Made by a program: the position numbers and the translations under genes
The notes under the pieces: model-generated
Told to the model about the DNA's origin: nothing
Seen by the model: only the letters and a program-made list of their open reading frames with translations
The model's database searches: none
In this document: one piece after another, positions 26,403 through 46,077 of the stretch
Layout: each line of letters begins with the position of its first letter
Position numbering within the stretch: the stretch's first letter is position 1
Assembly: GCF_000312045.1 (NCBI RefSeq)
Contig: NZ_HE978634.1
Span: forward strand, 427,192 to 491,191
Length of the DNA: 64,000 nucleotides
Source of the DNA: Noviherbaspirillum massiliense JC206
GTDB lineage: Bacteria > Pseudomonadota > Gammaproteobacteria > Burkholderiales > Burkholderiaceae_D
Reading direction: 5' to 3'

Positions 26403-26999
26403 CTAGTCGAGAAGTTTTTTTAGAGCCGGAAAATATTTCGACAGAGATTCCTCCTCCATCGCGTCGATTTTCTGGCGCAACCAAAGCTTCTTTGCCTGAG
26501 TTCCAATGGGTTCACGGACCAAAAATAACGGATCAACCGCAAGATTAACTGAGGCATCCAGACCGAAGAAACGCAACAAACCTTCACTATGTTTGGCGGA
26601 GGGTCTTTGCTCGCCCCCCTTCCATTTATAGACAGTAATCGGTGTCACGCTTAGGTAAGCCGCAAGGCGTGATTTTCCTCCGTGCTCCAGCGAATTTAGG
26701 AGAAACTTAAGATTTTCCAGAAAGATATCTACTCCTTCCAGAAGATCTCCAAACACGATTTGTTCGGAATCGACCTGAGCGGCCGTCGCGATCAACTGCA
26801 GTTCGCGATCAGAGACTTGCTTGCCTCCAGACAATATCTGCCGGGCCCGATCCACCCCGCATTCACACCAATTTGCTAGATGGTTTTCCCACTGGTCGGG
26901 CACGACATTATCCCTCCACAGTAGGCATGCAAGGTTTCTCGGAATGTTTGCAAGTTGGGACATATCGCGCACGTTGCCATAAGCTAACAATTTCGTCAA
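26403..26999 (-). CDS. XRE-type helix-turn-helix regulator
   Basis: The 198-residue protein appears to contain two helix-turn-helix units. The first is around WCECGVDRARQILSGGKQVSDRELQLIATAAQV. The second is GGKSRLAAYLSVTPITVYKWKGGEQRPSAKHSEGLLRFFGL, a classic Cro/CI-type layout with the recognition helix in TPITVYKWKGG. It is transcribed away from the helicase-TGT operon, with only about 90 bp between the starts, so it probably controls that divergent promoter. In defence islands such regulators often repress the effector genes. The C-terminal tail is charged and has no enzymatic motif. Confidence 0.8.
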   Translation of the reverse strand: MTKLLAYGNVRDMSQLANIPRNLACLLWRDNVVPDQWENHLANWCECGVDRARQILSGGKQVSDRELQLIATAAQVDSEQIVFGDLLEGVDIFLENLKFLLNSLEHGGKSRLAAYLSVTPITVYKWKGGEQRPSAKHSEGLLRFFGLDASVNLAVDPLFLVREPIGTQAKKLWLRQKIDAMEEESLSKYFPALKKLLD

Positions 27000-27089
27000 A
27001 AGTATTCTGCAATCAGCACGTATTTTCTGGATTTCTTCTATACTGCTTATGGCGATTTCATTCCTTTTTTGGTTTATAACGGCATATTT
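27000..27089. promoter_or_regulatory. Divergent promoter region of the 7-deazaguanine system
   Basis: This short A+T-rich gap separates the XRE regulator (leftward) and the helicase-TGT operon (rightward). TATACT at about 27040 could be a -10 element for the rightward operon. No operator repeat is obvious by eye, but this is the expected site of action of the regulator. Confidence 0.4.
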
Positions 27090-29456
27090 GTGACAAGCTT
27101 TCTTCCTCGTGGCCTTACTCCGCCGCAGCAGCAGATCATGGACATGGGGCTATTGGACTCAGGGTTCAATTGTGTATTACAAATGAGCACTGGGAGCGGT
27201 AAGACATGGCTGGCCGACCGCACCATCGAGAAGACGCTAAATGACGGGCGGCGAGCGATCTACGTGTGTCCAACGCGCGCTCTTGCTGCAGAGCGATATG
27301 AACACTGGCATGAGCGGAGCCATGGGTACCAGGTTGGCATTTTTACCGGTGATTTTGGGAAGTCCGGATCTGCTTATCCGGTCAGCTTTTCAGAAGCGCA
27401 CCTCCTACTTATGACACCGGAACGGCTCGACAGCTGTACTCGGAACTGGCGTAGCCATTGGGATTGGATTCCAGAAACTGACCTCGTCGTCATCGACGAA
27501 TTCCATCTTATTGGCGATGGATATCGCGGTGCTCGCCTGGAAGGCGCGCTCATGCGACTCCGACGACTAAACCCATTTCTCCGTATCGTGGCGCTGTCCG
27601 CCACATTTGGGAATCGCGAGGAACTTGCCGAGTGGCTTGACGGCGTCGATTACGTCGCCAATTGGCGACCAGTACCTCTCACATGGAAATACGTTCACTA
27701 CAAGCGCGCCGAAGAAAAGCCCGATTTACTGGTCCAAGAGGTTCACCAAACAACGCGTCACGGCGGAAAGAGCCTCGTCTTTGCCCAAAGCCGGCGACGC
27801 GCTGAAGCTCTGGCAGGTCATCTTAAATTGAACGGATTTCGAGCAAGTCATCATCATGCAGGATTGGAATATGACACGCGACGAAAGATAGAGCACCAAT
27901 TCCGGGGGACAGACATCGACATTGTTGTCGCGACATCGACGCTGGAGGTCGGCCTGAATATGCCGGTAAGGCAAGTCGTGCTTTACGATGTTCAGCAGTT
28001 TGATGGATCAGATTTCGTACCATTATCCAAGACCAAAGTATGGCAAAGGGTGGGGCGAGCAGGACGCTTTGGCTTAGATACTAGAGGAGAAGCGGTTCTC
28101 TTCACGCCTTCGTGGGGAGGCAAAGGCACGGACTATGAACAACAAAGCTTTGAGCCATGCCAATCTTCATTGGCAAATCCTCGAGCGCTTGCCGAACAGA
28201 TTGTCGCTGAGCTTGCGAGCGGACTTTCCCGCACAAGAACTGAACTGCGACGCACATTGAGCGAATCGCTAGCGTCCTTCCAAAATCGCTTAGCCAATGT
28301 AGAGTCGCTTTTGGACGACATGCTCAAAGGTGGGTTACTCACTGAGCACGACCGGACTAATCAGAATGAAAAGGAATTTCGGCTAAAGCTAACCAAAATT
28401 GGCCGGATCGCTTCGCGCCATATGCTTTCACCGCAAACGGTTCTGATGTTTCGAACGCTACTGGGCCGCTGTGAATCGCCGACCTTCTTCGACCTCCTGA
28501 TCATAGCTTGCGTGTCCGATGATTGCGATCCAGTTCTTCCGGTTTCCTTTGAGGAAATTCCCTCACTTTCGGACCAATTGGCTTGCGAGAGGTCTTCATT
28601 ACTGAACCGCGGTCCTCATGAACTCCCGGTCTTGTGCGGTATCTCGCCTCGCCGCTTTTTGGCAGCACTGAAGATGGCGCTCGCGGTTCGTGGATATACT
28701 CGTTGCGGTGAATGTGAAGACGTGGCGGAAGGGCTGGACTGTTATCCACTGGAGATTAAACGGGTCTGTGAATCGGTAGAACGACTCCTAACCGCGATGG
28801 CTTCGATCGCTGAACTGACCATCACGACCTCTAACGAGATCGATGTATTCACGAGCCCTGCGGAAGTGCCCAAAAAGATTAGGTTACTGACCCAAATGGT
28901 CGGGGCTGGCTTGAACGAAGAAGAAATTAGCCTGACTTTTGTACCGGGGATTGGTACCACATGGGCTAAACGGCTTGTCGGCGTAGGGGTCAGGCATGTT
29001 GAGGACTTGGCGCAATGCCGCGAAGACGATCTCATTGCACTTGGTGGTATTTCCAGGAATCGGGCAAAGCAGTGGGTCGAACAGGCAGCCCACTTAATGG
29101 CATCGGACGACATATATCTGCTGCGTGACGTTGGAGAAAAAATTGGCCAACGCATGTGTGATTGGCCAAGTGAAATTGATCCCTACCGGTTGAGGCGCGC
29201 GCGCTCGCTTGCTGTGAGACGAGCGGAACACCGAGAGTTTGTTGTTACAGGCGGCTCTGATCCACATAAAGTGGTTAGAGGCGCGGGGAACATTTACGAA
29301 TGCGATTGCATTGACTTTGCAAAGGGATATCGCTGCAAACATCTTCTTGCCGTGCAGTCGCATGTAGGTGATAAGGAGGTTATGCGCGCATCATCGCTGA
29401 TGTCGGACAGCAGCCAATCGCCGACGATCGATCTTTTCCAATTGTGGATGTCATAA
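27090..29456 (+). CDS. Ski2/Hel308-like helicase with HhH and SWIM zinc finger
   Basis: The 788-residue superfamily 2 helicase has Walker A STGSGKT (33-39), DEFH as motif II (136-139), LSATFGN as motif III, ATSTLEVGLNMP as motif V and QRVGRAGRFG as motif VI. The C-terminal part adds a helix-hairpin-helix segment (FVPGIGTTWAKRLVGVGV then LIALGGISRNRAKQWV). It ends with a SWIM zinc finger, YECDCIDFAKGYRCKHLLAV, a DNA- or protein-binding module. The overall plan resembles archaeal Hel308/Ski2 helicases. GTG 27090 is preferred over TTG 27069, though neither has a good ribosome-binding site. It is followed two bases after its stop by the TGT paralogue, so the helicase likely opens DNA for base exchange or checks modification status; that pairing is inference. 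Confidence 0.85.
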   Translation: MTSFLPRGLTPPQQQIMDMGLLDSGFNCVLQMSTGSGKTWLADRTIEKTLNDGRRAIYVCPTRALAAERYEHWHERSHGYQVGIFTGDFGKSGSAYPVSFSEAHLLLMTPERLDSCTRNWRSHWDWIPETDLVVIDEFHLIGDGYRGARLEGALMRLRRLNPFLRIVALSATFGNREELAEWLDGVDYVANWRPVPLTWKYVHYKRAEEKPDLLVQEVHQTTRHGGKSLVFAQSRRRAEALAGHLKLNGFRASHHHAGLEYDTRRKIEHQFRGTDIDIVVATSTLEVGLNMPVRQVVLYDVQQFDGSDFVPLSKTKVWQRVGRAGRFGLDTRGEAVLFTPSWGGKGTDYEQQSFEPCQSSLANPRALAEQIVAELASGLSRTRTELRRTLSESLASFQNRLANVESLLDDMLKGGLLTEHDRTNQNEKEFRLKLTKIGRIASRHMLSPQTVLMFRTLLGRCESPTFFDLLIIACVSDDCDPVLPVSFEEIPSLSDQLACERSSLLNRGPHELPVLCGISPRRFLAALKMALAVRGYTRCGECEDVAEGLDCYPLEIKRVCESVERLLTAMASIAELTITTSNEIDVFTSPAEVPKKIRLLTQMVGAGLNEEEISLTFVPGIGTTWAKRLVGVGVRHVEDLAQCREDDLIALGGISRNRAKQWVEQAAHLMASDDIYLLRDVGEKIGQRMCDWPSEIDPYRLRRARSLAVRRAEHREFVVTGGSDPHKVVRGAGNIYECDCIDFAKGYRCKHLLAVQSHVGDKEVMRASSLMSDSSQSPTIDLFQLWMS

Positions 29457-29458
29457 GC

Positions 29459-30343
29459 ATGGCAAGGTCAATAAATACTCGTAAGGGAGAAATACGTTTC
29501 CCCGCTTACGTCCCCGTGACAACGTTCGGGAAAAAATATCCGCTGGACGAATTGGTTCGCCCATACTTGACTCGGCTCGCATCTGCTGTGATGGTCTCGT
29601 ATCACTACGCGAAGCAACAGAAAAGTGCGATCCGCCTCCCGATGATGATTGATTCGGGTGGCTTCGCCAGCCTCTTTGAGAATGCAAGAGTCGTTGAAGT
29701 CAATGGCCTGGGCATTATCGAGATTAAGACGGACACGGGCATCGAAACAATTACCCCGAGCGAACTGCTCGAATTTCAGGAGCAAAACGCGGAAATCGCC
29801 TTTACTCTCGACTTCCCGATTCCGCCATCACTCGACCTTGAACGGGCGAAAGAGAGGCAACGACTCACCATCGAAAATGCTTACTGGGCGATTGAGAATC
29901 GCAGACGCCGAGACATGCCTCTTTACGCTTGTATTCAAGGCTGGGATTTAGAATCGTTTCTTGCGTGTGCCAGGTCATTTGTTGACTGCAAATTCGATGG
30001 TGTAGCGATCGGTGGACTGGTTCCACGCGCGAAAGATAGAGATTTCCTGAGATCGGTTGTACGTCAAACCCGCGAGATCGTCGGCGAAACGCCGATACAC
30101 GTCTTCGGAATCGGCAAGCCAGAACTCGCTGACCTCGTATTTCGCGCTGGCGCCGATTCGGTAGACTCTAGCTCATACTTGAAATTAGCTGCGGACGGTA
30201 AGCTCTGGGGGGCGGATACAGTGACTATAACTAATCCAACGCCGACGCAGCTTCTCCACCTAGCGCTATGTAACCTCGCAAACGCAACTCGAGGAAGCCT
30301 CCCTCTTTCCGTCTCACCGCATCTCCGGAGAAATTACTTTTGA
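29459..30343 (+). CDS. Short TGT-family transglycosylase paralogue (DpdA-like)
   Basis: The 294-residue protein is a tRNA-guanine-transglycosylase fold enzyme. Landmarks are ID65SGGF (equivalent of the TGT general-acid Asp in DSGGFQ), ACIQGWD (Gln160-Gly161, base recognition), AIGGLVPR (GGLAVGE equivalent) and GADSVD236SSSY, where Asp236 matches the catalytic nucleophile of canonical TGT (GVDMFD). The C-terminal zinc motif CxCxxC...H of true TGTs is absent and the protein is shorter than housekeeping TGT (about 370). Within the Dpd systems, such paralogues exchange guanine in DNA for a 7-deazaguanine. Start ATG 29459 is chosen; GTG 29444 would overlap the helicase. Coupling to a SWIM helicase instead of a tRNA gene argues for DNA as substrate. 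Confidence 0.82.
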   Translation: MARSINTRKGEIRFPAYVPVTTFGKKYPLDELVRPYLTRLASAVMVSYHYAKQQKSAIRLPMMIDSGGFASLFENARVVEVNGLGIIEIKTDTGIETITPSELLEFQEQNAEIAFTLDFPIPPSLDLERAKERQRLTIENAYWAIENRRRRDMPLYACIQGWDLESFLACARSFVDCKFDGVAIGGLVPRAKDRDFLRSVVRQTREIVGETPIHVFGIGKPELADLVFRAGADSVDSSSYLKLAADGKLWGADTVTITNPTPTQLLHLALCNLANATRGSLPLSVSPHLRRNYF

Positions 30344-30422
30344 TTCATGGCCCCGACCTTGTGCATCAACACTTAAAACTTCACAAAGTGTAATAAAAAA
30401 CTTCAGCCACCAAAGCCGTAGC

Positions 30423-31628
30423 TCAATCACGAGATGAGTGCCCCCAGCCTTCCTCTTTAGATTTAAAACCGGGCAGCTTCGGATGTGTTTCCCCAGTTTT
30501 CCTCCCAAACGTCTTCTGAAAATCCGGGCAATAGGTGCGCGAATCGCAAACGGTACAGGTGTTCTCATCCGACGCGTTCCGCTCCCACGCATCCATAACA
30601 GGCAACCCTTTTGCCTCTTTCCCCTTGCACGTTTCTATTCGCTTAACTACTTCGTCAAACGCATTCAACGCGTCCGCAATTGATTCATCGTTGATAGGTA
30701 AGGCGCGCAAAGAGCGCTGTAGCCGATAATCGAATGGTAGCAACGGTGCTTCCTTTTCCTTCGATGGCCAACTCTTGAGAATTGCTTCCGCCTCGCTTCC
30801 AAGTTTGGGCGGAATATCGGTCTTACCTCTTTTTACCTCGCGTCTGATAGTCTCAAAATCAGTCTTGGTCGGATAAAGTTCATTCAGGTAGACAAGCACA
30901 CCCGCCGCGACTGGCAACGCGTCGGGCTGTCTTCGTCGCAACTCTCCATACGTCTGAAGTTGCCAAGCATACTGAGCCCAATAACTACCCCCACTTACCG
31001 GTGGCCGGCGCATTCCTTTGTAATCGATGATAACTTCAAAGTTTTCTACAGGCATCTTCGGCAGGGAAGCGAGGACCGCCCTGACGATGGGATTATCTTG
31101 ATGCTTCGGGTCTTGCAATTCGACATGTGTCACGACATCGATAACTCCAACCATTTCGTAGCGGTCAGCCTCCCGGAATTCCCACGACTTGTCGATACTC
31201 GGTAGCGCACGAGCGCCGTACAGTCGGACTTCTGCGCGATGAATCAACGGAAAAAGGTGCGGCCCCATTTCCTGAATCGCTGCAGTAGCACGTAAATCAC
31301 CAAGTCGCTCCAAGTCGTCGTCCCATGGCACCAATCCTCGAGCAGAAAGGCGCTTCTTGATGAGCTCAAAGATGCTATTCAATTCATCAGCCGCCCATGG
31401 TGGCAGAGCATGCTCACCCTTTTTGAATCGTTCTTGATAGCGACGAAACGCTTCTTCAAGCACCCCATGGATGAACTCACCGAACCATAGCTGTACAGGG
31501 CGAGAAGAAGGCAGCTTGCCGATTCTGGTGTAACGATACTGAAGTCCACACCTCAAATATCCCAGTAAATCTCCAGTTAGGCTATACGAAGGGAGGGAAT
31601 AAACTTTCGGGCGCACTGATAGTTTCAT
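30423..31628 (-). CDS. AddB/Cas4-type Fe-S exonuclease (PD-(D/E)xK)
   Basis: The 401-residue protein is a RecB-family nuclease. It shows GEFIHGVLEEA (His54, motif I), MVGVIDVVTH (Asp164), VIIDYKG (Asp202, Lys204) and QLQTY (223-227). One cysteine near the N terminus (C27 in LRCGLQ) plus CTVCDSRTYC (C358, C361, C367) near the C terminus form the C-x(n)-CxxC-x5-C set that ligates a 4Fe-4S cluster in AddB, Cas4 and related nucleases. ATG 31628 has GAGG six bases upstream and lies seven bases after the UvrD-like gene, so the two are co-translated. It probably works with that helicase as a two-subunit, AddAB-like end-processing machine, here dedicated to the island system. It is last in the operon. 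Confidence 0.87.
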   Translation of the reverse strand: MKLSVRPKVYSLPSYSLTGDLLGYLRCGLQYRYTRIGKLPSSRPVQLWFGEFIHGVLEEAFRRYQERFKKGEHALPPWAADELNSIFELIKKRLSARGLVPWDDDLERLGDLRATAAIQEMGPHLFPLIHRAEVRLYGARALPSIDKSWEFREADRYEMVGVIDVVTHVELQDPKHQDNPIVRAVLASLPKMPVENFEVIIDYKGMRRPPVSGGSYWAQYAWQLQTYGELRRRQPDALPVAAGVLVYLNELYPTKTDFETIRREVKRGKTDIPPKLGSEAEAILKSWPSKEKEAPLLPFDYRLQRSLRALPINDESIADALNAFDEVVKRIETCKGKEAKGLPVMDAWERNASDENTCTVCDSRTYCPDFQKTFGRKTGETHPKLPGFKSKEEGWGHSSRD

Positions 31629-31635
31629 AAGAGCC

Positions 31636-33969
31636 TCAAATCTTGGTAAACGGCAGATTCTTGCCCGCCCAATGGCACACGCCGATGCGATCCCACCCGG
31701 TCGCGACGTTCGCAACATTTCCACCGGGCAGGGTAGGATTTATGCCAACAAGAATCAAGACATCTTGTGGACGACTGAAAGCGACAAAAAACTGACGATA
31801 CAAGTCGTCGAAGGCGCGATCACGCGGTGATCTCGTTGGCGGGCCAAGTGACGAATGACGACGAAGCATATCTTCCATCCGATGAGGCGGCCCGCCGTCA
31901 CTCGGAAAACGCTTGAAACGTTGCGCCGCGTAGTTGCCTTTAAAGTCAGATCCCACATCGACAATCGTAAGAGGAAACTCCAACCCCTTGGACTGATGAA
32001 TTGACAATACGCTAAGTTGATCTCGAGGAAAGGATTCGATTAATTCTTCATCTACTGACGTCGTTCCAGCCGCTATCGGGCCGAAAAAATCACGCAATAA
32101 TTCTTTAATGGAAGCCTGGCCCAACCCTGGATCATCAGCGTTGTATGCCATTCGTCCTTTAAATTTCCCTGTTTGCTCACAAGCCGCTAACTGCCGCGTA
32201 AACACCTCCAGATAGACTTGCCCCTCGGCTGTGTTGTGAAGGGATGGGAAGTAATGAACAACCCCGTAGATCAGTTGGATGATCGAAATTGACTTGGGCC
32301 ATTCGTATCCTGCTCGGCCCGGGTCACGGGCTGCCCATCCAGCGATGTATTCTGTCAGTCCCTTTGGCACTTCTCCCAAGCTCACCAAAGTATTTGCAGA
32401 GTCTACCCAGTCTCGCAATTTGTCTGAAACGTTCTGAGGAATCCCGGAAACACCGGCATTAAGCACCGTACAATCCGGATCAACTGCTTTCAGCAGAAAC
32501 CCGCCGAAGTTCTGCACGAGCGGGATGCTCGCAATATCTTCCCCCCGCGGATTGAACACCTCGACTGGTCGTGGCTTCACTGCCAACGCTTGCCGCAAAA
32601 GAAGCGGCAAGCGCTCCTTACCGCCACTGGAATACTCAGCCGGACTACTACACAATAATGCACAATCCCCGATGTCTCCCCCGCTATCGCTGTCACAACT
32701 AATGTGGCCATGTCCCGGAACTGAGAACCCCTTTCCGCGAAAAACATCGTAAATCAAGTCGGCGAGGTCGTCGGCCAGTTCACCAACGGTCGGTCGAAAC
32801 ATGCCCAAAACCGGCACCCCGTCATTCGCGAACGAGGGATAAGCCAACTGCGGTTTGCCTTTGACGCGGACCGACTGGTAGCCTGCGTCAAGCCCAGCAT
32901 AGGCATTGACGAAACTAATAATGGATTTCGTAGAACGATAGTTATTGGCCAGAAATTCCTTCTCCGCTGCTTTTCCGTAGGTCGTTCTATAACGCGATTC
33001 AAAGTCTCGAAAAAGATCGACTGTGGCACCGCGAAAGCGATAGAGGCTCTGGTCGTCGTCCCCAACAACGCAGAGCGCTCCATTGCAAGATTTCGCCAAC
33101 TGAAAGTAAATCTGCTCTTGAAGCAGATTGGTATCCTGGTATTCGTCTACCAAGACAACCCGCAGACCTTGACGAAATTCATCCAGTTGCCCGTTACGCA
33201 GTCTCTGCAATACCTCGAACTCAAGGAGCGCAAAGTCCACCATTCCTCGATCCTGCAACGATTTGTGATAATCACTGACAATGTCGCCGAGGATTTGCCG
33301 CGCCTTAACTTGGTCGGCTGGGGATTGGGAAAGGAGGTGTTCCCAATCGACCAGATCATTAAAAAGTCGCCCCCAAAGCGATTGAACAAGATTTAACTTG
33401 GCGCTCAGGTTGTAGCCATACCCACCACCACCTTCTGAGTGCAGCGCACGGAGTAGCGCGTCGAGATCGTCATCGTCGTAGCGATGGCCTGCAAACATAC
33501 CGTCGCGTAGTAGTAAGGTTCTTGCGACGAATTCATCTGCTAGCACGGGCGGTTGTGTTCCGGGCGGCCGATGGTCGCGTAACAACTGTTCGCAGAGACT
33601 GTCGATTGTTCCGGTCCAGACTTGGTTAATGTCGAGCCCAGCAAGTTTTTCGTGCGTTTCCGGCCCTATCCTGCTATCTGCAAGCAGACGGTCCAATATC
33701 TGAAACCCCCACCCTAGAACACGAGAACGTAATTCTTGCGCTGCCTTCTTGGTAAAAGTCGTCGCTACGATACCAGGAGGCGGGACGCCATCGACTAGTA
33801 CCAGTTTCAAAATACGAAGCGTTAGTACTGTTGTCTTTCCAGATCCTGGACCTGCGACGATCATCAGCCCGCAATCAACAGGTTTCTCGATTGCACGCTT
33901 TTGTTCATCATCGGGTTCGTGACCACGGAACGCCTTAACAGCACGATAAAGCTCAGCAAGTTCAATCAT
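31636..33969 (-). CDS. UvrD/PcrA-like SF1 DNA helicase
   Basis: This 777-residue 3'-5' helicase has Walker A AGPGSGKTTV (39-48), motif II VLVDEYQDTN, motif III VVGDDDQSLYRFRGA, motif IV LANNYRST, motif V SIHQSKGLEFPLTIV and motif VI FVAFSRPQDVLIL. The nuclease domain found in AddA and RecB is not visible at the C terminus, so it resembles UvrD with the nuclease supplied by the next gene. The gene starts about 100 bp after the preceding helicase gene, the largest gap in the operon, which might contain an internal promoter. Role in DNA degradation or end resection is inferred from the partner. Confidence 0.92.
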   Translation of the reverse strand: MIELAELYRAVKAFRGHEPDDEQKRAIEKPVDCGLMIVAGPGSGKTTVLTLRILKLVLVDGVPPPGIVATTFTKKAAQELRSRVLGWGFQILDRLLADSRIGPETHEKLAGLDINQVWTGTIDSLCEQLLRDHRPPGTQPPVLADEFVARTLLLRDGMFAGHRYDDDDLDALLRALHSEGGGGYGYNLSAKLNLVQSLWGRLFNDLVDWEHLLSQSPADQVKARQILGDIVSDYHKSLQDRGMVDFALLEFEVLQRLRNGQLDEFRQGLRVVLVDEYQDTNLLQEQIYFQLAKSCNGALCVVGDDDQSLYRFRGATVDLFRDFESRYRTTYGKAAEKEFLANNYRSTKSIISFVNAYAGLDAGYQSVRVKGKPQLAYPSFANDGVPVLGMFRPTVGELADDLADLIYDVFRGKGFSVPGHGHISCDSDSGGDIGDCALLCSSPAEYSSGGKERLPLLLRQALAVKPRPVEVFNPRGEDIASIPLVQNFGGFLLKAVDPDCTVLNAGVSGIPQNVSDKLRDWVDSANTLVSLGEVPKGLTEYIAGWAARDPGRAGYEWPKSISIIQLIYGVVHYFPSLHNTAEGQVYLEVFTRQLAACEQTGKFKGRMAYNADDPGLGQASIKELLRDFFGPIAAGTTSVDEELIESFPRDQLSVLSIHQSKGLEFPLTIVDVGSDFKGNYAAQRFKRFPSDGGPPHRMEDMLRRHSSLGPPTRSPRDRAFDDLYRQFFVAFSRPQDVLILVGINPTLPGGNVANVATGWDRIGVCHWAGKNLPFTKI

Positions 33970-34073
33970 GATTTCTTCTAGTTCTCCCCCTGAACTGAAG
34001 AATATAGCAGCAATTTAACTTCTGGCAACACGAAGCAACTACTGCTCACCTCCCTTTTATCTGATCGCGCCGC

Positions 34074-36338: not shown

Positions 36339-36353
36339 AGGTCTACTAACCTT

Positions 36354-38177: not shown

Positions 38178-38179
38178 AG

Positions 38180-39994
38180 TTAATCACCAAGTAGATCGTA
38201 ATCGGGAACTTGAATTGGCAATGGTACGTCTCGGTACGAAGCAGTAACGATCACTTGCCCCTTCCCCATCACCTGCAACTCTTTTTCGAATCCTGCAAGA
38301 TCAGCGGACGCATTCCTAACCGCTTCGCGCCGTTCCTGCTCATTACCCAACGCCATGTTGAGTTCTGTATTGAGCTGTGTGAGCACCCCGGAATCGATTT
38401 CGGTCACCTGCTGCGAGACCACCGTTAGCCCAATGCCAAACTTCCGGCCTTGCCGCGAAATGTCCCTGAACACCGATCCAAACCGCATCCGTGCCGGGTT
38501 GAGGATGCTGGGCGCTTCCTCGACGACCACATTGACATAGGGCAGCTTGTCCTGGGCGATGGGTTTGCCGTCCTGGATGTACGGGAGTTCGCCAGATTCC
38601 ATCTTGGCCAATAGCACCTCAACCAACGCCCGTTGTCCCGGGGAGATTTCAGAACCGTCTTCATGCAACTCATTGCCAAACGCGGCACGGATCGCAGTGG
38701 GCAGTTCGGCCACGGTCTCGACGCTGCGCAATGCTCGCCTCAGGGTGAATAGGGTCCGAGCAACGATGGTTGTCACCAGGAACTGCTCCAACTCGCTCAT
38801 CAACGTGGTATCGACGACCAAAATACGGCCACGCTCTAGCGCGCAGATGATCTCGGGCAGCAAGGATTCGTAGTCGTAACCCTTTTCAGGGAAATAGGCG
38901 GAGAAGACCCGCGTCGAACCCGTGGCTAGGAACCCCAAACGACGCTGAACTGCGCCCACGGTGCCTTCCATATAGTCGGGTCCGTCGCCATCGTCATCTT
39001 CGCGACGCAGTTCATTGTTGAGGACACGCGTCACCCATTCGTGGCCCCAGTTGCCGAACTGCTGGTTGGCAAAGGCTGTTTGCTGCTCGCTGAACTCGGT
39101 TATGCTGACGAGGTCTTGCGGCAGAACATCCGCGCGGGACAGCACTATCTGCCGTGCCATGTCTTCGTCAGTAATCGTCCTTGCGGTGAGGTAGTAGAAC
39201 GGTTCGACCAGGGCGTTCTTTTCGTCCTGGCTCATCGCGCCGACCATGCCCGCCATGCCGTCTGCGCCGCCGGTCCGGTTGGCATGCCAACGCCGGAACT
39301 CATCGTGAGGGTCGATGGCGAAGAGACTGGCCGCCGGTTCGCTATTGTCTTTAGTCACCCAACGCTGCCGGTTGTAGTCGAGCACGGCGCGGATCAGCAC
39401 CATCATAAGGTTGCTCTTACCAACGCCGGTACGTCCGAAGGCTCCAATGTGATGAGAGAGAGCGTATGCCGGCAGAAACACCTTGACGCCATTGAGTGCT
39501 TGTTCGCCCGCGAGCAGGTCGCCGATATACAACCCTTTCGATCCGAGCTGCGATTCAAACAACAACTGGATGACTTCGGCCGACTCGCTACTTTCCGGGT
39601 CAATCCGATAGACATTGGTCAGGTGCTCCGGAAGCCGGCGCGGACGACGGAAGACCCATTTCTCACCCTCAAACTCGGCGTACCCCATCACGACACCCTT
39701 GAGCTCGATGAGTTGCTCTTCGATCAGATCTTCACTGCGATAGGAATCCGGCATCGTGAGTTTGTTACGCGCCACGTCGCCGATGTCGATGGCCCGATTG
39801 AGGACGTTGGCGTACTCACTGGTGCGAAAGACGTAGAAGCGCTCCTTGCCACCCCGCCGACTCGGCATGAGGAATAAATCGCCCACGGCCACGTCGCCGT
39901 TGTGCGCCACGACCGTCAGTTGATGAGTGTCGCTCTGCGCCAATACGCCAAACTCGCGCCCTAATTTGCCGATGAGATCATCGTATATCGTCAC
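38180..39994 (-). CDS. herA: HerA-like DNA translocase (DUF87)
   Basis: The 604-residue protein starts with a HAS-barrel region (residues 1 to about 120) and has Walker A GRTGVGKSN (187-195), GRILVVDTTLM as Walker B, VVVEEAPSILNP and the arginine-rich SRQGRKFGIGLTVVSQQ sensor region. This is the HerA/FtsK-type hexameric ATPase family that pumps duplex DNA. Start GTG 39994 has GGGAGG five bases upstream; the in-frame ATG at 40024 lies inside nurA. It follows nurA by ten bases. In archaea HerA and NurA form a helicase-nuclease complex for end resection; in bacteria the pair appears mostly in defence settings. Here it likely forms a DNA-degrading complex. Confidence 0.92.
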   Translation of the reverse strand: MTIYDDLIGKLGREFGVLAQSDTHQLTVVAHNGDVAVGDLFLMPSRRGGKERFYVFRTSEYANVLNRAIDIGDVARNKLTMPDSYRSEDLIEEQLIELKGVVMGYAEFEGEKWVFRRPRRLPEHLTNVYRIDPESSESAEVIQLLFESQLGSKGLYIGDLLAGEQALNGVKVFLPAYALSHHIGAFGRTGVGKSNLMMVLIRAVLDYNRQRWVTKDNSEPAASLFAIDPHDEFRRWHANRTGGADGMAGMVGAMSQDEKNALVEPFYYLTARTITDEDMARQIVLSRADVLPQDLVSITEFSEQQTAFANQQFGNWGHEWVTRVLNNELRREDDDGDGPDYMEGTVGAVQRRLGFLATGSTRVFSAYFPEKGYDYESLLPEIICALERGRILVVDTTLMSELEQFLVTTIVARTLFTLRRALRSVETVAELPTAIRAAFGNELHEDGSEISPGQRALVEVLLAKMESGELPYIQDGKPIAQDKLPYVNVVVEEAPSILNPARMRFGSVFRDISRQGRKFGIGLTVVSQQVTEIDSGVLTQLNTELNMALGNEQERREAVRNASADLAGFEKELQVMGKGQVIVTASYRDVPLPIQVPDYDLLGD

Positions 39995-40004
39995 GTGTGC
40001 CTCC

Positions 40005-41222
40005 CTATGCATGCCCGGTGGCAATGGAAACGTCTTTGAACAGCGTGCGTTTCATGCCTGCGGCCACCGCGGCATCGATAATCTGTTTTCTGAGTGCGAC
40101 CCGCTCGGCCATCTTCATGGATGTGCGGTCATGGCACGCCTTGATCGGATACGGGTAGCCAAATGCCCGTTGATCGTGGCTGGCGTAGTCCAGGTCGCCA
40201 AACGCTTTGGCTTCGTTGGCCGACGTGGCAGCGTAATCCGAGCCGCGTAGATACTGCTGCCAATAGTTGAAGTCGACATCGAGGCGCATGATTGGCGTGT
40301 TGCGATGGAAACGCACCAAGTAACTGACCGCACCATAGGGCGGCACCCGCTTTCCATCTGGCAAAGGGAAGGCCCATGGATCGACGTTGGGAATTGGCAG
40401 GCGGATAAACCAGTGCTCGGCATGTGAATTGCCCATCGCCATGGCTTTATCGCGAACGAGGGCATCGACCTGCTCGACCGATGGCAAGCCATGGGACTTA
40501 CTCAACGCAAAAAAGCCAATCCCCCGCTTGGTGGCCTCAACACAGCATAGACGCTTGAGATGCTCGAAGAACAGTGAACCAGATTGCGTCACTAACGGTA
40601 GTGACATGGTGGTATCAACGAGCACATAGTTGGGGCGTTGGTCGCTACAGATTAATCGCAATGCAGCGCCCATCTCGGCCGTTGTGCGCAACTGGATCCC
40701 AAGATTCCCAGCATCTGTTGGGTGAGGCAGTATCAGCCCGTCAAATAATTCGTCGACGGTTCCCGATCTGCGCCCTGCGGTTGCGCGGAGCTTCATGTAA
40801 TCTGATTGTGCGATGACTTCCTTGACATCGCTTCCAGCCAGATAGGCGAATGCGTCAAGCAGTACTTCCTTGCGCTTAGTTTCGTGCTCAGGGATCCAGG
40901 TTACGTGCACGACAGGGTCTGAGAGCACAGGAAGTTCCTTGAGCCCGGTATCAATCGTACTTTCGTACACCACGCCCTGCGCAACTGTGAAATAAACAGC
41001 ACAATCGGCATAGGTAAGCGCCGGGAAGTCGCCACTACCGTCGACTCCCCCATAGCGCATTGATTGGCGTTGTTTAGTGTGTTCGAAGAAGCAAATGCGC
41101 TGGTTGATAGCCTCACGTTCTTTTTCTCGCAGCGTAGGGTCGGTTTCCCACGCCTTCATCTCCTGAGCCACCTCGGAAATTTGACGTTTTACAACCTCTC
41201 GCAGATGCAAGTCAAAGCGCAT
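40005..41222 (-). CDS. nurA: NurA-like nuclease
   Basis: The 405-residue protein matches the NurA nuclease family (RNase H-like fold). It has the catalytic GGVDGSG (Asp61), VLVDTTMSL (Asp near 208), SKSHGLP, and a C-terminal YPYPIKACHDRTSMKMAE with the conserved His. It shares one base (TAATG) with the stop of the DpdA-like gene upstream and lies ten bases before herA; the order transglycosylase-nurA-herA implies a fixed stoichiometry. NurA acts as a 5'-3' exonuclease/endonuclease when bound to HerA. Here it is the most likely main nuclease against unmodified DNA, which is inference from context. Confidence 0.87.
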   Translation of the reverse strand: MRFDLHLREVVKRQISEVAQEMKAWETDPTLREKEREAINQRICFFEHTKQRQSMRYGGVDGSGDFPALTYADCAVYFTVAQGVVYESTIDTGLKELPVLSDPVVHVTWIPEHETKRKEVLLDAFAYLAGSDVKEVIAQSDYMKLRATAGRRSGTVDELFDGLILPHPTDAGNLGIQLRTTAEMGAALRLICSDQRPNYVLVDTTMSLPLVTQSGSLFFEHLKRLCCVEATKRGIGFFALSKSHGLPSVEQVDALVRDKAMAMGNSHAEHWFIRLPIPNVDPWAFPLPDGKRVPPYGAVSYLVRFHRNTPIMRLDVDFNYWQQYLRGSDYAATSANEAKAFGDLDYASHDQRAFGYPYPIKACHDRTSMKMAERVALRKQIIDAAVAAGMKRTLFKDVSIATGHA

Positions 41223-43264
41223 TAGCCAACCTCTTCGGCCGTCAAATCGAGATTCATTTGAGAATCTGGATCATCGCTTCTGAGCGAAGAGGCAATGACC
41301 TCGCCAGCCAGTGCACGCTGCATCAACCTATAAAACGCATATGTGTTGTGAAAACCGCGGCGGCGATTACGGTTGTTACCACGGAAAATGACGACATCAA
41401 TACCATGCTTACGGCAAATGTCGCAAGGACAGGATTTCCATGGCTTAGCTTCAAGTGTCTTTCGGAGGTATTTACGATTGTCTTGACGTTCTGGTGTAAT
41501 AAGTTGGTCGTATTCGTATAGGACTTCCAGGACATGATCAACCGAATGCTCTCCCCGATCAAAGGCATGCAGTATGTCGATGCATGCACGTTCGAGCTTT
41601 CGTACTTGGTCAAGTGTGGCACGCCCATCAGACACCATGCGCTTTGCTCTGAAGCTCTTTTCAGCCTCTGGAATGCGAATGGCCCCATATTCGACGCCGT
41701 CCACCGTCAAATAGTTATTGCCAGAGCCGCCTAACCATGCCTTACGTAAGCATGAGGCACTATCAGCAGAGTTGACACCTGCACGAGCCAAATCATTAAT
41801 CGCATTTAATCGTGCAACACCAAACAAATGCAACTTCGTTTCTGCAGGAATGACATTGCGTACCGCTTTTACGATCGACAAGATCTCTGGAGTACGACGA
41901 CGCACCATGGCACCAACCGCGATGTATCGATATCCCATCGCCGCATACTGTTTTGCAGCCTTGGCGAAGCTCGCTTCATCCCAGCCTTGAAGTGCGCCTA
42001 TCGGAGTCCAATTGAGCCCAAGTTTGTTGTGCTCCGCGATGAAGTCTCGCGCATTCTCAATGGTCAGCTCATAACGCCTCTTACGATCCGCGTCCTCGCC
42101 AATTGCGAAGTGATCGATCGAAACCCCATAGTCGAAATCCAGGCGAGTGTAGTACTCGAGGATTTCATTGGTCGTAAAAGGCGGTTCGTAATCATTGATA
42201 TAGCCAAACGCACCGCAGTCCCCCATGATCGGAAAATCGCGTGGCACTCTAAGATGGCGATGCACTCCTAGTTGGTTGATTCGTTCCGCTTTTTTCTTGC
42301 TCTGTTCTGCGACAATCTTCGAAATCAGTATGCCGTCGTAGTTTGGTTCCTTGAACATCTGGTGGGCATATACCTGATTCGACCAGTCACCGGTCCCACC
42401 GGAGTGTGTGTCAGTTTCAAAATCGAAATCAGGATCAACTTGATCGTCCCAATCTGGAATGAAATAAGCAAGCTTGGATCGGTGTACTTTATTACGCCAT
42501 GAATTAGGGAGGTCAATCACACGGTCAACCTCCGGTTTTGCATGTCCAGCGCTTCGTGTTGTCTTTGAGCTTGCGGCTCCACCTACCAGTAGGCTGAGAA
42601 GCTCCTCCCCTGAATGAAGAAACTCATTCAAGCGGCTGGGCGCAGCTGACAGTTGTTCAAGGAGTCGAGCAGCTAATTCGCCCTTTATACCCACCATACC
42701 GCACGAAAAGCGTGTGGCATCACTATTAGCCAGCACGGTCATGTGCATGCCTTCTAACTTAGGTAACTTCTTTGCAGTCGCCTTTCCACCAAAGAGCAGT
42801 GTTGGGCCTCCAAGCTTCACTGACTCGTCCAGCTCGCACGCAGCCAGGTAGTCCTCGCCCAGCAAAATAAGTCCGAGATCATATGGCTCGGCGAGTGTCC
42901 TGCGGATGGCCTCCGGCACGCCCAACTGCCTTGCCCACTTTTTTAGCTCTACAGACTTCATTGTCGCGAAGGTGACTTCATACGGTGCGACCTTACGGTC
43001 ATGCGGAACAAGACCATACCCCGCTGACAGAATTCGCAAGTCACACTGCACTACGCCGCTCTGGCGCGCCACCTTTACACCACGCATCAATCGTTGATGC
43101 TGCATACCAGTGTAAAGATCTTCCGCGGGAACAAGCTTATGCTTTAATTTCTTCTCTCTTGCGGTAACATGGGCCGCCCCCTGCGCAAAATCATTCAGGG
43201 TGAGTTGAAGGTCATCCTCGACGCTCTTCTCGCCAGTACAGGACGTAATAACCAAAATACGCAA
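41222..43264 (-). CDS. YaaA/DUF6884-TGT fusion, DpdA-like transglycosylase
   Basis: This 680-residue two-domain protein heads the long operon. Residues 1 to about 200 resemble YaaA/DUF6884 proteins: ILVITSCTGEKS, PAEDLYTGMQ, LRILSAGYGLVPHDRKVAPYE. From about 320 it is a TGT fold: MGDCGAFGYI (Asp near 349), GALQGWD, AVGAMVRR and GVNSADSAS, whose second Asp (near 500) aligns with the TGT nucleophile. Unlike the 294-residue paralogue it keeps a zinc-type CPCDIC (near 611-616) with a downstream His. Known DpdA proteins are TGT paralogues that insert preQ0 into DNA; this one probably does the same. The YaaA-like domain may bind DNA. It begins 304 bp from the queE stop, leaving room for its own promoter. 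Confidence 0.85.
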   Translation of the reverse strand: MRILVITSCTGEKSVEDDLQLTLNDFAQGAAHVTAREKKLKHKLVPAEDLYTGMQHQRLMRGVKVARQSGVVQCDLRILSAGYGLVPHDRKVAPYEVTFATMKSVELKKWARQLGVPEAIRRTLAEPYDLGLILLGEDYLAACELDESVKLGGPTLLFGGKATAKKLPKLEGMHMTVLANSDATRFSCGMVGIKGELAARLLEQLSAAPSRLNEFLHSGEELLSLLVGGAASSKTTRSAGHAKPEVDRVIDLPNSWRNKVHRSKLAYFIPDWDDQVDPDFDFETDTHSGGTGDWSNQVYAHQMFKEPNYDGILISKIVAEQSKKKAERINQLGVHRHLRVPRDFPIMGDCGAFGYINDYEPPFTTNEILEYYTRLDFDYGVSIDHFAIGEDADRKRRYELTIENARDFIAEHNKLGLNWTPIGALQGWDEASFAKAAKQYAAMGYRYIAVGAMVRRRTPEILSIVKAVRNVIPAETKLHLFGVARLNAINDLARAGVNSADSASCLRKAWLGGSGNNYLTVDGVEYGAIRIPEAEKSFRAKRMVSDGRATLDQVRKLERACIDILHAFDRGEHSVDHVLEVLYEYDQLITPERQDNRKYLRKTLEAKPWKSCPCDICRKHGIDVVIFRGNNRNRRRGFHNTYAFYRLMQRALAGEVIASSLRSDDPDSQMNLDLTAEEVG

Positions 43265-43567
43265 AACAAAACTCCTCGTTCAGTTCTTTAATGCCGGATT
43301 CAACGACACATAACTTTATTCAATCAATTGGTGCGGCGAGTAAGAAATTTCTGTTCACGACCGTAGCGCACACACCTTTTTCCCAATATAAATCTCATGG
43401 CTCAAACACACGTATCGCGAATAGCAGCCGATCCTGAAATCTTGGACGAGTAGCATCTTCTTGTCGGGAAATGCATACATATTTACTAAGCAAGTATATT
43501 GCATGAAGGCATCTTTCGACCACCGGTTAGAAGAGTAAGCACGCAGCCTTACTTGATCGAGATCAGT
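43265..43567. promoter_or_regulatory. Intergenic leader of the DpdA-nurA-herA operon
   Basis: About 300 A+T-rich bases without a gene lie between queE and the transglycosylase gene on the same strand. The operon promoter is expected here. I see no riboswitch that I can name and no clear terminator after queE, so read-through from queD-queE is possible. Confidence 0.4.
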
Positions 43568-44203
43568 TCAAGCGATTCCGATCACTTTGTGCATCTGAAT
43601 GCCAAGGCGCCATTTGGGATGGACTTGGCAATATTCGATGGCGAGCCGCGTGTTCTTCTCCCGATCGGGTCCATCCATCGGCTGCAGAAAAAAATGCCGA
43701 AAATCGAGCGCTTCGAATTTCTCCGGCGTTGCATCCTGCTGGGGATAGACGAGCTTCAATTCGTCGCCCGATCGAAGAACCACCTCGGCAATGCCTTTTG
43801 GGCTAACACAAATCCAGTCGATTCCTGGCGGCGCACTTTGCGTGCCATTCGTTTCAACGGCCACTTCAAATCCACGCTCGTGCAGCGCATCGATTAACGG
43901 TTCGTCGAGCTGCAGCAACGGCTCCCCGCCCGTACATACCACCAGGCGATTGATCGCTTGGTCACTAGGCCAGTGCCGGCTAATCGCGTCCGCGAGATCC
44001 GCTGGGTTTTTGAATTTTCCGCCACCGACGCCGTCCGTGCCGACGAAGTCGGTGTCACAGAACCGGCAAACTGCTGCTGCGCGATCGCGCTCTAAGCCGG
44101 TCCAGAGATTACATCCCGCAAAGCGGCAAAATACCGCGGAGCGACCTACATTCGCCCCTTCCCCTTGCAGAGTATAGAAAATTTCTTTGACGCTGTAAGT
44201 CAT
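43568..44203 (-). CDS. queE: 7-carboxy-7-deazaguanine synthase QueE
   Basis: QueE converts 6-carboxytetrahydropterin to 7-carboxy-7-deazaguanine, a radical-SAM step towards preQ0. The 211-residue product begins SVKEIFYTLQGEGANVG, the QueE hallmark. It carries the atypical cluster C31-x14-C46-x2-C49 seen in proteobacterial QueE. CTGGEPLLQLDEPLIDAL is the GGEPL motif that binds SAM. Start ATG 44203 overlaps the QueD stop by ATGA; an upstream in-frame start at 44251 is inside queD. Length is normal. It is the island's own copy, so it would supply preQ0 for DNA modification in parallel with any housekeeping queuosine pathway. Confidence 0.95.
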   Translation of the reverse strand: MTYSVKEIFYTLQGEGANVGRSAVFCRFAGCNLWTGLERDRAAAVCRFCDTDFVGTDGVGGGKFKNPADLADAISRHWPSDQAINRLVVCTGGEPLLQLDEPLIDALHERGFEVAVETNGTQSAPPGIDWICVSPKGIAEVVLRSGDELKLVYPQQDATPEKFEALDFRHFFLQPMDGPDREKNTRLAIEYCQVHPKWRLGIQMHKVIGIA

Positions 44204-45294
44204 ATCGGTAACGCCGGACCTGCTGCGCCCCAAGACAGGATCACGCCACAACCTTTCGTTTCGTAGAGATCGATGCGATCCAGCTGCGATAGATTGGGCT
44301 GCGTTTGTTCACGAATCCATTTTGCCAAGCTTGCCGTATCCGCATCGTGGTCCCCGACGATTTCATGCAGCGGGTGATGATCGAGCTGCTTAAACACTGG
44401 ATTGAAAATTTCTTTCACGTCACCGAAATCAACGGTCCAACCCATGACTTCATCCAGCGGGGCGTGCAAGTGCAATCGCAAGGTATAGGTATGTCCATGA
44501 ATGCGGCGGCGCGGATCCCCTACCGGTGCATGTTTCAAGCACACTGAGCTATCCAGCGTCATTTCCTTCCAAATTCGATGGTGCGTGCCATCAAAATGCG
44601 CTCCACAACTCGCTGTCTCATAGACCGTCACCCATGACAGTTCCGGCAGCTCGGGCTTGAGGCGCTGCCATATCCAACGCGAGATCACTTCACTTGTGGG
44701 ATTTTCGAGTCCGGGGATGTCATTAAGACAGGCAAAATTCAGTTCCGCGTTAATGGGTGCCCAAAGCTTATCCAGGCAATCGTAATCAATCCCGATTTCC
44801 CGGCCGCCGAGATCTTGGTCGGCATGCAAAATCACTTCAAACCCATGACCGTGCATCCGCCCGCATTTGTGCCCTAATGGCACGTTCGGCAATTGATGCG
44901 CCGATTGCAGCAGGTATCGGCGCCAGATATGTGCATGGTCATTACTGGAAAGATCGACGCCTTCATCTTGCGTACTTTGAATACCGACTGCATCAATGCC
45001 TTCCAGGTCCAAACGAGCCCGCACCCACCGCGACAAATTCTCGTCAGTTGGCTGGTCAAGTAGGCCATTTAAATGCGCGTAATCGAGCGGAGACACGGCC
45101 GCAACCAAACGTTCCCGCAATTTCACCACCTCGCCTCCTTGGAAATCTGCCCAATTGTTGGGCAACGCGACTCGCACATTTGCAAGGAAACTATGCCCAT
45201 GGAGGCGACGGGAACGATGACCTTCTGGCAGCAGATCTACCTGACGTGCCGCTTCGAAGTTGATTGCAGCAGCATAAAGAAGATGTTCAGTCAT
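44200..45294 (-). CDS. queD: Triple QueD-like fusion (6-carboxytetrahydropterin synthase)
   Basis: QueD makes 6-carboxy-5,6,7,8-tetrahydropterin from dihydroneopterin triphosphate and is normally about 120 residues. This protein is 364 residues and contains three successive T-fold units, each with HGH (32-34, 148-150, 266-268). Only the middle unit keeps the full active site: SAH (His133), GHKCGRMHGHGFE (catalytic Cys144), and VYET. In unit 1 the Cys is Ser28 and the first zinc His is Arg17. In unit 3 the Cys position is Arg and the zinc His is Val, though LDHHPLHE and YETKGCG remain. The flanking units are therefore probably structural or regulatory. The stop overlaps queE (ATGA). Confidence 0.92.
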   Translation of the reverse strand: MTEHLLYAAAINFEAARQVDLLPEGHRSRRLHGHSFLANVRVALPNNWADFQGGEVVKLRERLVAAVSPLDYAHLNGLLDQPTDENLSRWVRARLDLEGIDAVGIQSTQDEGVDLSSNDHAHIWRRYLLQSAHQLPNVPLGHKCGRMHGHGFEVILHADQDLGGREIGIDYDCLDKLWAPINAELNFACLNDIPGLENPTSEVISRWIWQRLKPELPELSWVTVYETASCGAHFDGTHHRIWKEMTLDSSVCLKHAPVGDPRRRIHGHTYTLRLHLHAPLDEVMGWTVDFGDVKEIFNPVFKQLDHHPLHEIVGDHDADTASLAKWIREQTQPNLSQLDRIDLYETKGCGVILSWGAAGPALPI

Positions 45295-45510
45295 TTTTAT
45301 TCTTTACAAAGTACTAAGTGTGCAGATTGATGGCACCTGATTGAAGTAATTCTCATTTTCACAAGAGACAGAAGTGGCGCTAATGACAAGGTTAGCCGTC
45401 AAGACCATGGTGGTAAAAGCTCCAGGGCCGGATATTCGAAGACTTCGCACAACAGATACAGCGTTGTTACCGTATTGTTTACGGACAGTAGGCAACGTCC
45501 AGACTCCCAC
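45295..45510. promoter_or_regulatory. Leader and likely promoter of queD-queE
   Basis: This stretch separates the transporter's terminator from the queD start on the same strand, so it must carry the queD-queE promoter. Several A+T-rich boxes are present but no pair is convincing by eye. No riboswitch is identified. Confidence 0.4.
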
Positions 45511-45551
45511 AAAAAATTGCCTCACGAATGTCCGGTGCATTCGTGAGGCAA
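45511..45551 (-). terminator. Rho-independent terminator after the VUT transporter
   Basis: A 14-bp perfect stem (TTGCCTCACGAATG and its complement) with a seven-base loop is followed, on the minus strand, by TTTTTT. It lies about 25 bases after the transporter stop and separates that gene from queD-queE. Confidence 0.9.
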
Positions 45552-45576
45552 GTTGAGTCCCAAGTTGATTGGGTAT

Positions 45577-46077
45577 TTATAGTTTTGTGCTAATTGTGCC
45601 TCTCGCTTTATCTAGCAAAAATGCCCAGAAAACTCCCCCACAAGTCTTCGCCAAAAACTGAGCAATGACGATCTGTGGCAGCAGCACGCCGAATGCCAGG
45701 GTAGGAAACATCACCGAATCAACTGCAGCTCCCACAACATTGCTTCCGATGCTTCGCCGCATCCACGTGCCACCAAGCTTAGAAAAGGCGATCCAGTCTG
45801 CGACCGCGGCAAATGCAAAACTGAGGGCGCTTGCAAGGGCAATCGTTTGTGCCGCCGGATTAAGAATGTATGTCAAGACGCCCGAAAATCCGATTAACGC
45901 ACCCATCTGCCAAGGGCGCATTCTCAAATGCAGCCAATCTCGCAGGCTCAGATCCAATCCAATAAAAAGGAACGCTAAAATCGGTGTAATTGCAGGCCCG
46001 AATTGAGCAACAAGCAGGTTAGAGGCGATAATTGTTCCGGTATAAACAGCAAGGGCAAGATAGAGGGAAATTTGCAT
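45577..46077 (-). CDS. VUT-family queuosine-precursor transporter
   Basis: The 166-residue protein is almost entirely membrane-embedded, with about five or six helices (SLYLALAVYTGTIIASNLLVA, PILAFLFIGLDLSLRDWLHL, MGALIGFSGVLTYILNPAAQ, TIALASALSFAFAAVADWIA, VDSVMFPTLAFGV). The LDLSLRDWLHL and GSNVVGAAVDSVMFP segments are characteristic of the VUT/YhhQ family. E. coli YhhQ imports preQ0 and preQ1, so this gene may let the cell salvage the precursor from outside. It is the first gene of the island's 7-deazaguanine block and has its own terminator. Specificity is inferred from family and neighbours. Confidence 0.85.
   Translation of the reverse strand: MQISLYLALAVYTGTIIASNLLVAQFGPAITPILAFLFIGLDLSLRDWLHLRMRPWQMGALIGFSGVLTYILNPAAQTIALASALSFAFAAVADWIAFSKLGGTWMRRSIGSNVVGAAVDSVMFPTLAFGVLLPQIVIAQFLAKTCGGVFWAFLLDKARGTISTKL

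Follow-up and report, generated by a model that had tools for sequence, protein, structure and literature searches.

A probable Dpd-type 7-deazaguanine modification-restriction locus with a different candidate restriction arm on a tRNA-Arg island of Noviherbaspirillum massiliense

Introduction

The closest described relatives of the locus reported here, a gene block at positions 26403-46077 of a 64,000-nucleotide stretch of Noviherbaspirillum massiliense JC206 DNA (the window), are the Dpd systems (DpdA-K) of the Salmonella Montevideo type. The block shares with them a DpdA, a DpdC-like domain, nearby QueD and QueE genes, an island location, and a predicted combination of DNA modification and restriction. 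It differs from them in that the DpdC-like domain is fused to DpdA, in a second tRNA-guanine transglycosylase (TGT) paralogue, and in a helicase/nuclease arm of another kind; DpdB and the DpdD-K set were not found. We consider it probable that the block is a Dpd-type 7-deazaguanine modification-restriction system on a tRNA-Arg island, with another restriction arm and acting by the steps proposed below. The gene set would probably put a modified base in place of some guanines of the host DNA and break down DNA that lacks the mark.

Three other systems resemble the block in part. In archaea, a HerA translocase stands beside a NurA nuclease, as in the block, in a repair module; the block pair, unlike the archaeal one, lies in a mobile bacterial island together with DpdC-DpdA. 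BREX-related capture (BRC) resembles the block in HerA, in a TGT found in a subset of BRC, and in a predicted 7-deazaguanine mark; according to the relevant passages of its report, the BRC core comprises PglZ, DUF6079, a STAND NTPase and DUF4007, and its authors found no DpdB or DpdC (PMC12839542). Pfam scans, which covered only the 13 genes of the block, matched HerA and none of these four core proteins. BRIGADE shares a predicted 7-deazaguanine synthesis and a non-canonical arm with the block; the passages concerned describe YprA-like helicases with a PLD or PDDEXK nuclease, reported by the authors from halophilic archaea only (PMC12458937). The block helicases, in contrast, fit Hel308-type models best; as for the YprA-like and DpdJ/ARMADA-like helicases of BRIGADE, canonical DpdJ had no match in the window and the PADLOC DpdJ model gave HelB 27.6 bits, no YprA model having been run. 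The gene set of the block is not described in the relevant passages of PMC12839542, PMC12458937, PMC11888242 and PMC6884629, and mention of it in the founding Dpd papers or elsewhere is possible. A survey that, in the passages concerned, demanded both dpdA and dpdB (PMC11888242) would have let such loci escape for that reason.

Results and Discussion

Gene content of the block

The block gene set comprises 13 genes, all of which were scanned with Pfam. The HTH-like gene is on the minus strand, HelA and TGT2 are on the plus strand, and the remaining ten genes, from the nuclease through VUT, are on the minus strand. The end of the HelA open frame and the start of that of TGT2 overlap by 13 bases. 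The relatives named below are the 16 loci described under recurrence.

26403..26999, minus: helix-turn-helix (HTH)-like protein, 198 residues; Pfam match below cut-off; neighbour of HelA in 13 of 16 relatives
27069..29456, plus: HelA, 795 residues, Hel308-like DEAD helicase; helix-hairpin-helix and SWIM-like C terminus
29444..30343, plus: TGT2, 299 residues, TGT paralogue; seven checked active-site positions kept, zinc motif missing
30423..31628, minus: Cas4/AddB-like PD-(D/E)XK nuclease; C-terminal cysteine cluster
31636..33969, minus: UvrD-family helicase, 777 residues; domain match
34074..36338, minus: HelB, 754 residues, second Hel308-like DEAD/DEAH helicase; domain match
36354..38177, minus: UNK607, 607 residues, unknown family; conserved among relatives
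38180..40024, minus: HerA-type DNA translocase, 614 residues; Pfam DUF87
40005..41222, minus: NurA-family nuclease, 405 residues; assigned via relatives; GVDG motif
41222..43264, minus: DpdC-DpdA fusion, 680 residues; DUF6884/DpdC-like N-terminal part (about 1-215) and DpdA C-terminal part (about 260-652)
43568..44203, minus: QueE-like radical SAM protein; start set at Met17 of a 227-residue open frame
44200..45294, minus: QueD, 364 residues, three PTPS repeats; PTPS over cut-off
45577..46077, minus: VUT/YhhQ-type putative preQ0 transporter; VUT over cut-off

Most gene identities, the recurrence, the island, and the fact that the two arms stay separate across the loci read are established at the level of sequence.

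The DpdC-DpdA fusion

Judged by its matches, the 680-residue fusion is a true DpdA, and the sole DpdA among the two TGTs of the block. Its C-terminal half reaches 436 bits against the NCBIfam model NF041059 (cut-off 200), carries the TGT active-site residues, and has the DNA-guanine transglycosylase 7ui4 as its closest solved relative in the PDB (E = 5e-79). In the N-terminal half, residues 36-142 match Pfam DUF6884 with 41.9 bits (cut-off 30), residues 2-102 match the PADLOC DpdC model with 43 bits, and residues 45-211 are 25% identical to canonical DpdC (E = 4e-8 in a one-to-one comparison). The canonical reference is an Enterobacter plasmid protein annotated as hypothetical and called DpdC from its position before dpdA. 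No DpdC is listed among the NCBIfam matches of the fusion; DUF6884 is the Pfam domain given for dpdC in the relevant passage of PMC11888242. The initial annotation had reported DpdC as missing, and these matches correct it: DpdC is present as a fused, divergent N-terminal domain. In all 24 aligned fusions the four TGT residues and the CxCxxC zinc motif are kept, and on the DpdC side five of six checked positions are kept in 24/24 and the sixth (S8) in 22/24.

The initial annotation had also given DpdA-like features to both TGT paralogues; both TGT-domain proteins are indeed there, and only the 680-residue one is DpdA. That the TGT genes might be tRNA enzymes among unrelated neighbours is contradicted for DpdA by the proximity of 7ui4 and by a separate full-length Tgt in the same genome.

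Precursor genes and the proposed writing steps

The initial annotation placed the precursor genes QueD, QueE and VUT in the block, and they were recovered there. QueD (PTPS) and VUT exceed their Pfam cut-offs. The radical-SAM match of QueE stays under its cut-off (23.5 versus 29.5), and its relatives, with up to 66% identity, adjoin QueC in sister loci. The block lacks QueC and FolE, as had been stated, and both were found elsewhere in the genome, QueC at C1:2772918 (E = 1e-67) and FolE on C2, in line with the suggestion that the host supplies the missing steps. QueD has three PTPS repeats in one chain, with a Cys just before the HGH motif only in the middle repeat; the QueD frames of the relatives are 120-183 residues long.

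DNA modification, restriction and each step of the mechanism are inferred. In the first step, preQ0 would be made by the QueD and QueE of the block together with host FolE and QueC, or imported through VUT. By homology, the DpdA half would then insert preQ0 into DNA in exchange for guanine, after which the DpdC half would turn the preQ0 into its amide, 2'-deoxy-7-amido-7-deazaguanosine (dADG).

DpdB, which the initial annotation likewise did not see, had no match in the genome with either NF041060 or PF14072. The search was repeated with PF14072 because NF041060 had missed two known DpdB-like positives, both of which PF14072 found. Because DpdB is absent, it may be dispensable in this variant, and the block, as a Dpd without DpdB, would be useful for testing the function of DpdB.

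Exchange of arms behind one writer

The HelA-TGT2-HelB genes, UNK607, HerA-NurA and the UvrD-nuclease pair would form an arm directed against unmarked DNA, in which the TGT2/helicase unit may look for the mark on guanines, and DNA breakdown may fall to HerA-NurA and to the helicase-nuclease pair. We propose this step because of the gene content and because the arm occupies the place of the Dpd restriction genes in other fusion loci. Nine such loci were compared: three plasmids (Scytonema NIES-4073, Allocoleopsis PCC 7113 and Paenibacillus sp. 37) and six cyanobacterial genomes from 386 of an Oscillatoria phylum sample, in which 14 had any match and seven weak or one-sided ones were left aside. 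Haloarchaeal L009 (unfused), Deinococcus taeanensis L017, Pelobacter L010 and the viral L040-L043 were not included; G254 was, although its fusion lies in two frames.

The nine loci have the same fusion, and all of them (9/9) show DpdB and/or DpdE/F/H/J/K in place of HelA-TGT2-HelB, HerA-NurA and UNK607. Profiles of HerA, NurA and UNK607 found no match among the 697 open reading frames (ORFs) of these loci. Conversely, in what was read of the 13 loci that carry the fusion and TGT2 on one contig, the window among them, neither DpdB nor a DpdD-K set is seen. A Fisher value of 2e-6 for arm versus comparison loci treats related loci as independent and is descriptive only. In a tree of 24 fusions, which excludes G254 and counts G053 as an arm locus though its fusion and TGT2 are on separate contigs, the TGT2-arm label must have changed at least twice to fit the well-supported branches. 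Cyanobacterial fusions of either arm are mixed in this tree; a clade of its own holds nine further arm fusions together with two fusions found on viral contigs. The arms therefore look exchangeable, and it is chiefly this exchange, with the same writer kept, that argues for a restricting role of the arm. The exchange suggests that the writing and the destroying half of Dpd are exchangeable modules. Because the writing half is of the Dpd type (DpdC-like, fused to DpdA), the block reads as a Dpd variant with another arm; the initial proposal of a different class of 7-deazaguanine restriction/modification is supported as to a modification locus with a non-canonical set including HerA-NurA, and not as to the class.

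Recurrence in other genomes

A genome collection was scanned once with the TGT2 profile and gave 18 loci, of which L038 (22% identity) and L039 (a fragment) were dropped, leaving 16 good relatives with 46-60% identity over the best segment. They come from Cyanobacteria, Spirosoma, Verrucomicrobia, Singulisphaera, Holophagaceae, Deltaproteobacteria/Myxococcota, and beta- and gammaproteobacteria, and one of them is a single-cell assembly. Counting genes in the stretches read, and NurA in whole genomes, HTH was present in 13 of the 16, HelA in 16, HelB in 15, HerA in 12 (one at 28%), UvrD in 11, PDDEXK in nine, UNK607 in ten (by profile search) and NurA in ten; the UvrD-nuclease pairs of G041 and G055 are at 24-30% and that of G044 is in pieces.

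A fusion match was found in the genomes of 12 of the 16 relatives, ten times on the TGT2 contig and in G053 and (partially) G052 on another one. Of the four relatives without a full fusion match, three (G045, G049 and G051) carry TGT2 on a short contig or close to the end of one, and in G043 the fusion gives just a short match, on a contig of 18.9 kb. Together with the window and two plasmids, fusion and TGT2 share a contig in 13 of 19 cases (ten of them genomes). An earlier tally of 16/16 was discarded, since it included the weak match of TGT2 itself to the query. The plasmid of Picosynechococcus PCC 73109 has the whole arm gene set; that of Nostoc NIES-3756 has the set too, with no UvrD-nuclease seen at 28000-76302 of 76302, the part covered. 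The association of NurA, HerA and TGT that the initial annotation suggested looking for thus recurs across several phyla, and the gene set is not a chance cluster. Nearer to the host, 39 other genomes of the genus, family and order gave two fusion matches: G037 (order) has an unfused DpdA adjoining DpdJ and DpdK, and G003, the sole match among 14 genus genomes, has the DpdC part only. The 16S gene of the host is nearest, within the plasmid collection, to that of Cupriavidus metallidurans (93.6% identity), which makes a betaproteobacterial host probable.

This recurrence bears on the idea, which we find distinctly improbable, that the block joins two independent neighbours, in which a HerA-NurA/Hel308 set for repair or defence merely travels along with a Dpd-like modification pair. 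Against the idea, the set accompanies the fusion in distant genomes, and the nine fusion loci with Dpd genes show no HerA, NurA or UNK607 in the stretches read. In favour of the idea, islands gather defence genes, as the TmtA and PDC-M27-like genes of the same island illustrate, and the viral-collection contig L040 has fusion, NurA and HerA with no TGT2 seen in the contig part covered. On that contig (L040:10001-14082) the fusion is 53% identical to that of the window and is accompanied by a NurA relative (32%), a HerA piece (44%), QueC and QueD.

The second TGT

TGT2 scores 51.8 bits against the NCBIfam DpdA model (cut-off 200), and the reading of both TGTs as DpdA was ruled out on this score. 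In an alignment of 16 sequences (that of the window and those of all relatives but L035), all seven checked active-site positions, which we take to be equivalent to those of the Zymomonas enzyme, are kept in 16/16, and the CxCxxC zinc motif is present in none. TGT2 thus keeps the active site of the tRNA TGT family and lacks its C-terminal zinc site. In the PDB, archaeosine/queuine tRNA enzymes are nearer (1iq8, E = 1.5e-13) than the DpdA 7ui4 (E = 1e-5). This proximity is what a cluster for tRNA modification and DNA repair, with both TGTs acting on tRNA, would have in its favour; with a fusion that is DpdA, a separate Tgt in the host and no zinc motif in TGT2, we regard such a cluster as highly improbable.

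TGT2 also occurs away from the block gene set. On plasmids of Deinococcus ficus and D. grandis its neighbour is a helicase resembling HelA (33% identity), and a single 430-residue frame of D. gobiensis contains both TGT2 and helicase sequence. No DpdA match was found in these plasmid records, the chromosomes not having been searched. These plasmids and the Nostoc MS1 plasmid described below were left out of the locus counts.

L014:14977-17864, L016:14986-17870 and L015:15028-16320: TGT2/helicase regions of the Deinococcus plasmids

On a Nostoc MS1 plasmid (L013:19977-20912), a lone TGT2, 82% identical to that of Nostoc NIES-3756, lies amid MT-A70 and cytosine methylase genes, with no DpdA match in the plasmid record. 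A search of viral contigs gave 46 pattern matches and no true relative of TGT2. The TGT2 profile also matches second TGTs in G240, Paenibacillus L008, L009 and L017. The one in G240 (L130, G240:C125 38571-39575) is a 334-residue protein beside the fusion, in a locus with DpdB and DpdJ/K.

From these features TGT2 may be a reader, a second writer or a base-excising striker. As a zinc-less TGT in an operon with helicases, it is a candidate reader of 7-deazaguanine marks. The second-writer role, which we consider unlikely though plausible, would assign TGT2 and the two helicases to modification: TGT2 would be a second enzyme inserting bases into DNA, the helicases would open the duplex, the job of DpdB would thereby be done, and HerA-NurA and UvrD-nuclease alone would restrict. 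The conserved active-site positions are consistent with it, DpdB was not found wherever TGT2 and the fusion stand together, and a lone TGT2 among methylase genes on the Nostoc MS1 plasmid is as expected of a self-protection gene. The distribution in other loci points the other way, since DpdB and a second TGT are both present in G240 and both missing from the stretches read of G082 and G254, and Deinococcus plasmids whose records give no DpdA match have TGT2 paired with a helicase. A simple replacement of DpdB by TGT2 was rejected, as DpdB and the second TGT co-occur or are both absent across the loci read. A more speculative and rather doubtful proposal makes TGT2 the sensor and first striker of restriction: moved along DNA by its two Hel308-like partners, it would attack unmarked guanine at recognition sites and leave an abasic site or a covalent enzyme-DNA intermediate for HerA-NurA and UvrD-nuclease. 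If true, this would be a transglycosylase turned into a base-excising restriction enzyme, matched to the mark written by its paralogue DpdA.

Helicases and nucleases of the arm

The degradation genes named in the initial annotation, HerA, NurA, UvrD, a Cas4/AddB-like nuclease, two Hel308-like helicases and an unknown protein, are all there, NurA by way of its relatives and the unknown protein as a conserved family. Pfam confirmed the UvrD, the PD-(D/E)XK nuclease, the two DEAD helicases and the two TGT-domain proteins, and HerA matches DUF87 with 46.5 bits (cut-off 23.2). The best NCBIfam models for HelA and HelB are archaeal-type DNA helicases including Hel308, all far under their cut-offs. 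Walker A and DExx motifs are visible in the helicases, and Walker A in HerA. In the nuclease, a C-terminal cysteine cluster and the motifs D...DxK and QxxxY were recognized by eye; its start was placed at Met33 of the open frame because the alignment of a relative begins at residue 33.

The NurA assignment comes from the family: all six members that were aligned match the Pfam NurA model with E values no higher than 1 (the best, 8e-6, above the cut-off), and the GVDG motif is invariant in all six. HerA adjoins this NurA-family nuclease in overlapping frames, as in a HerA-NurA pair. UNK607 has an N-terminal pattern, E11/D45/K73-x-W-R/E80, which suggests a nuclease. A Pfam search assigned no family to it, a plasmid-collection search with it gave nothing useful, and profile searches of the PDB, made with alignments of NurA and of UNK607, were equally unproductive. 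Two divergent copies of the UNK607 family, matching chiefly at their ends, occur in five of the 16 relatives (L032, L030, L037, L026, and L022 with L099).

Observations that weigh against a Dpd-type system with another arm

Several observations weigh against the interpretation of the block as a Dpd-type system with another arm. Some concern the genes themselves: the DpdC half is divergent, the NurA of the window by itself fails the Pfam cut-off (E = 0.27), and the Nostoc MS1 and Deinococcus plasmids have TGT2 but no DpdA match. HelA scores 88.7 bits with PADLOC DpdF and HelB 27.6 bits with PADLOC DpdJ, both below other helicase models, and an SNF2 gene of the island at 7055-10528, adjoining a PLD-domain gene, matches PADLOC DpdE with 40.8 bits (PDC-M27C, 233 bits); we read this weak match as shared helicase ancestry.

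Others concern the absence of canonical Dpd genes. Among 2273 ORFs of the window and the TGT2-arm loci, none was matched at 1e-3 by canonical DpdB, D, E, G, H, I or K; the DpdB, DpdE and DpdI queries found nothing in control loci either, so that the absence of DpdB and DpdE rests on locus readings and PF14072, and that of DpdI is weak. In the arm loci DpdJ had one match (7.5e-5, a helicase on another G040 contig) and DpdF 17 weak ones, the best at 4e-11; in four control loci, true DpdF proteins reached 1e-94 to 8e-104. A DndB/DpdB-family gene (PF14072) lies on other contigs of G044 and G055, and one also on another contig of G051.

The comparison of 13 and nine loci joins differently collected and partly related sets, the arm loci having been seeded with TGT2 and the others with another seed, and 11 of the 16 relatives are metagenome-assembled genomes. 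The UvrD-nuclease pair is also present in four of the nine comparison loci (L006, G160, G212 and G240), and is therefore shared between the arms.

The island and its other genes

The block is enclosed in an integrase-bearing island of about 45 kb (1613-46625), bounded by the following features.

1613..1661: left repeat copy, exact 49 bp of the tRNA-Arg 3' part; island end
1829..3187, plus: tyrosine integrase, just inside the left repeat
46577..46625: right repeat copy, inside tRNA-Arg(CCG) 46577-46652; island end

A MobA/MobL relaxase-like gene (16026-16736, minus; 87 bits, cut-off 26.7) suggests that the island is mobilisable. Two further defence candidates lie in it. A Sacsin/NO VEIN protein of 1594 residues (21217-26001, minus) matches PADLOC TmtA over its full length with 2216 bits, and three genes at 3763-10528 (plus) resemble PADLOC PDC-M27A/B/C (29, 51 and 233 bits); a PLD domain and an SNF2 helicase are encoded among them. 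The right island flank is conserved in relatives and the left flank was matched in none of them, so that the empty site was not reconstructed. G001, G003 and G004 have a repeat copy of 29-50 bases at a distance of about 8-11 kb from the tRNA, a trace such as other islands might be expected to leave.

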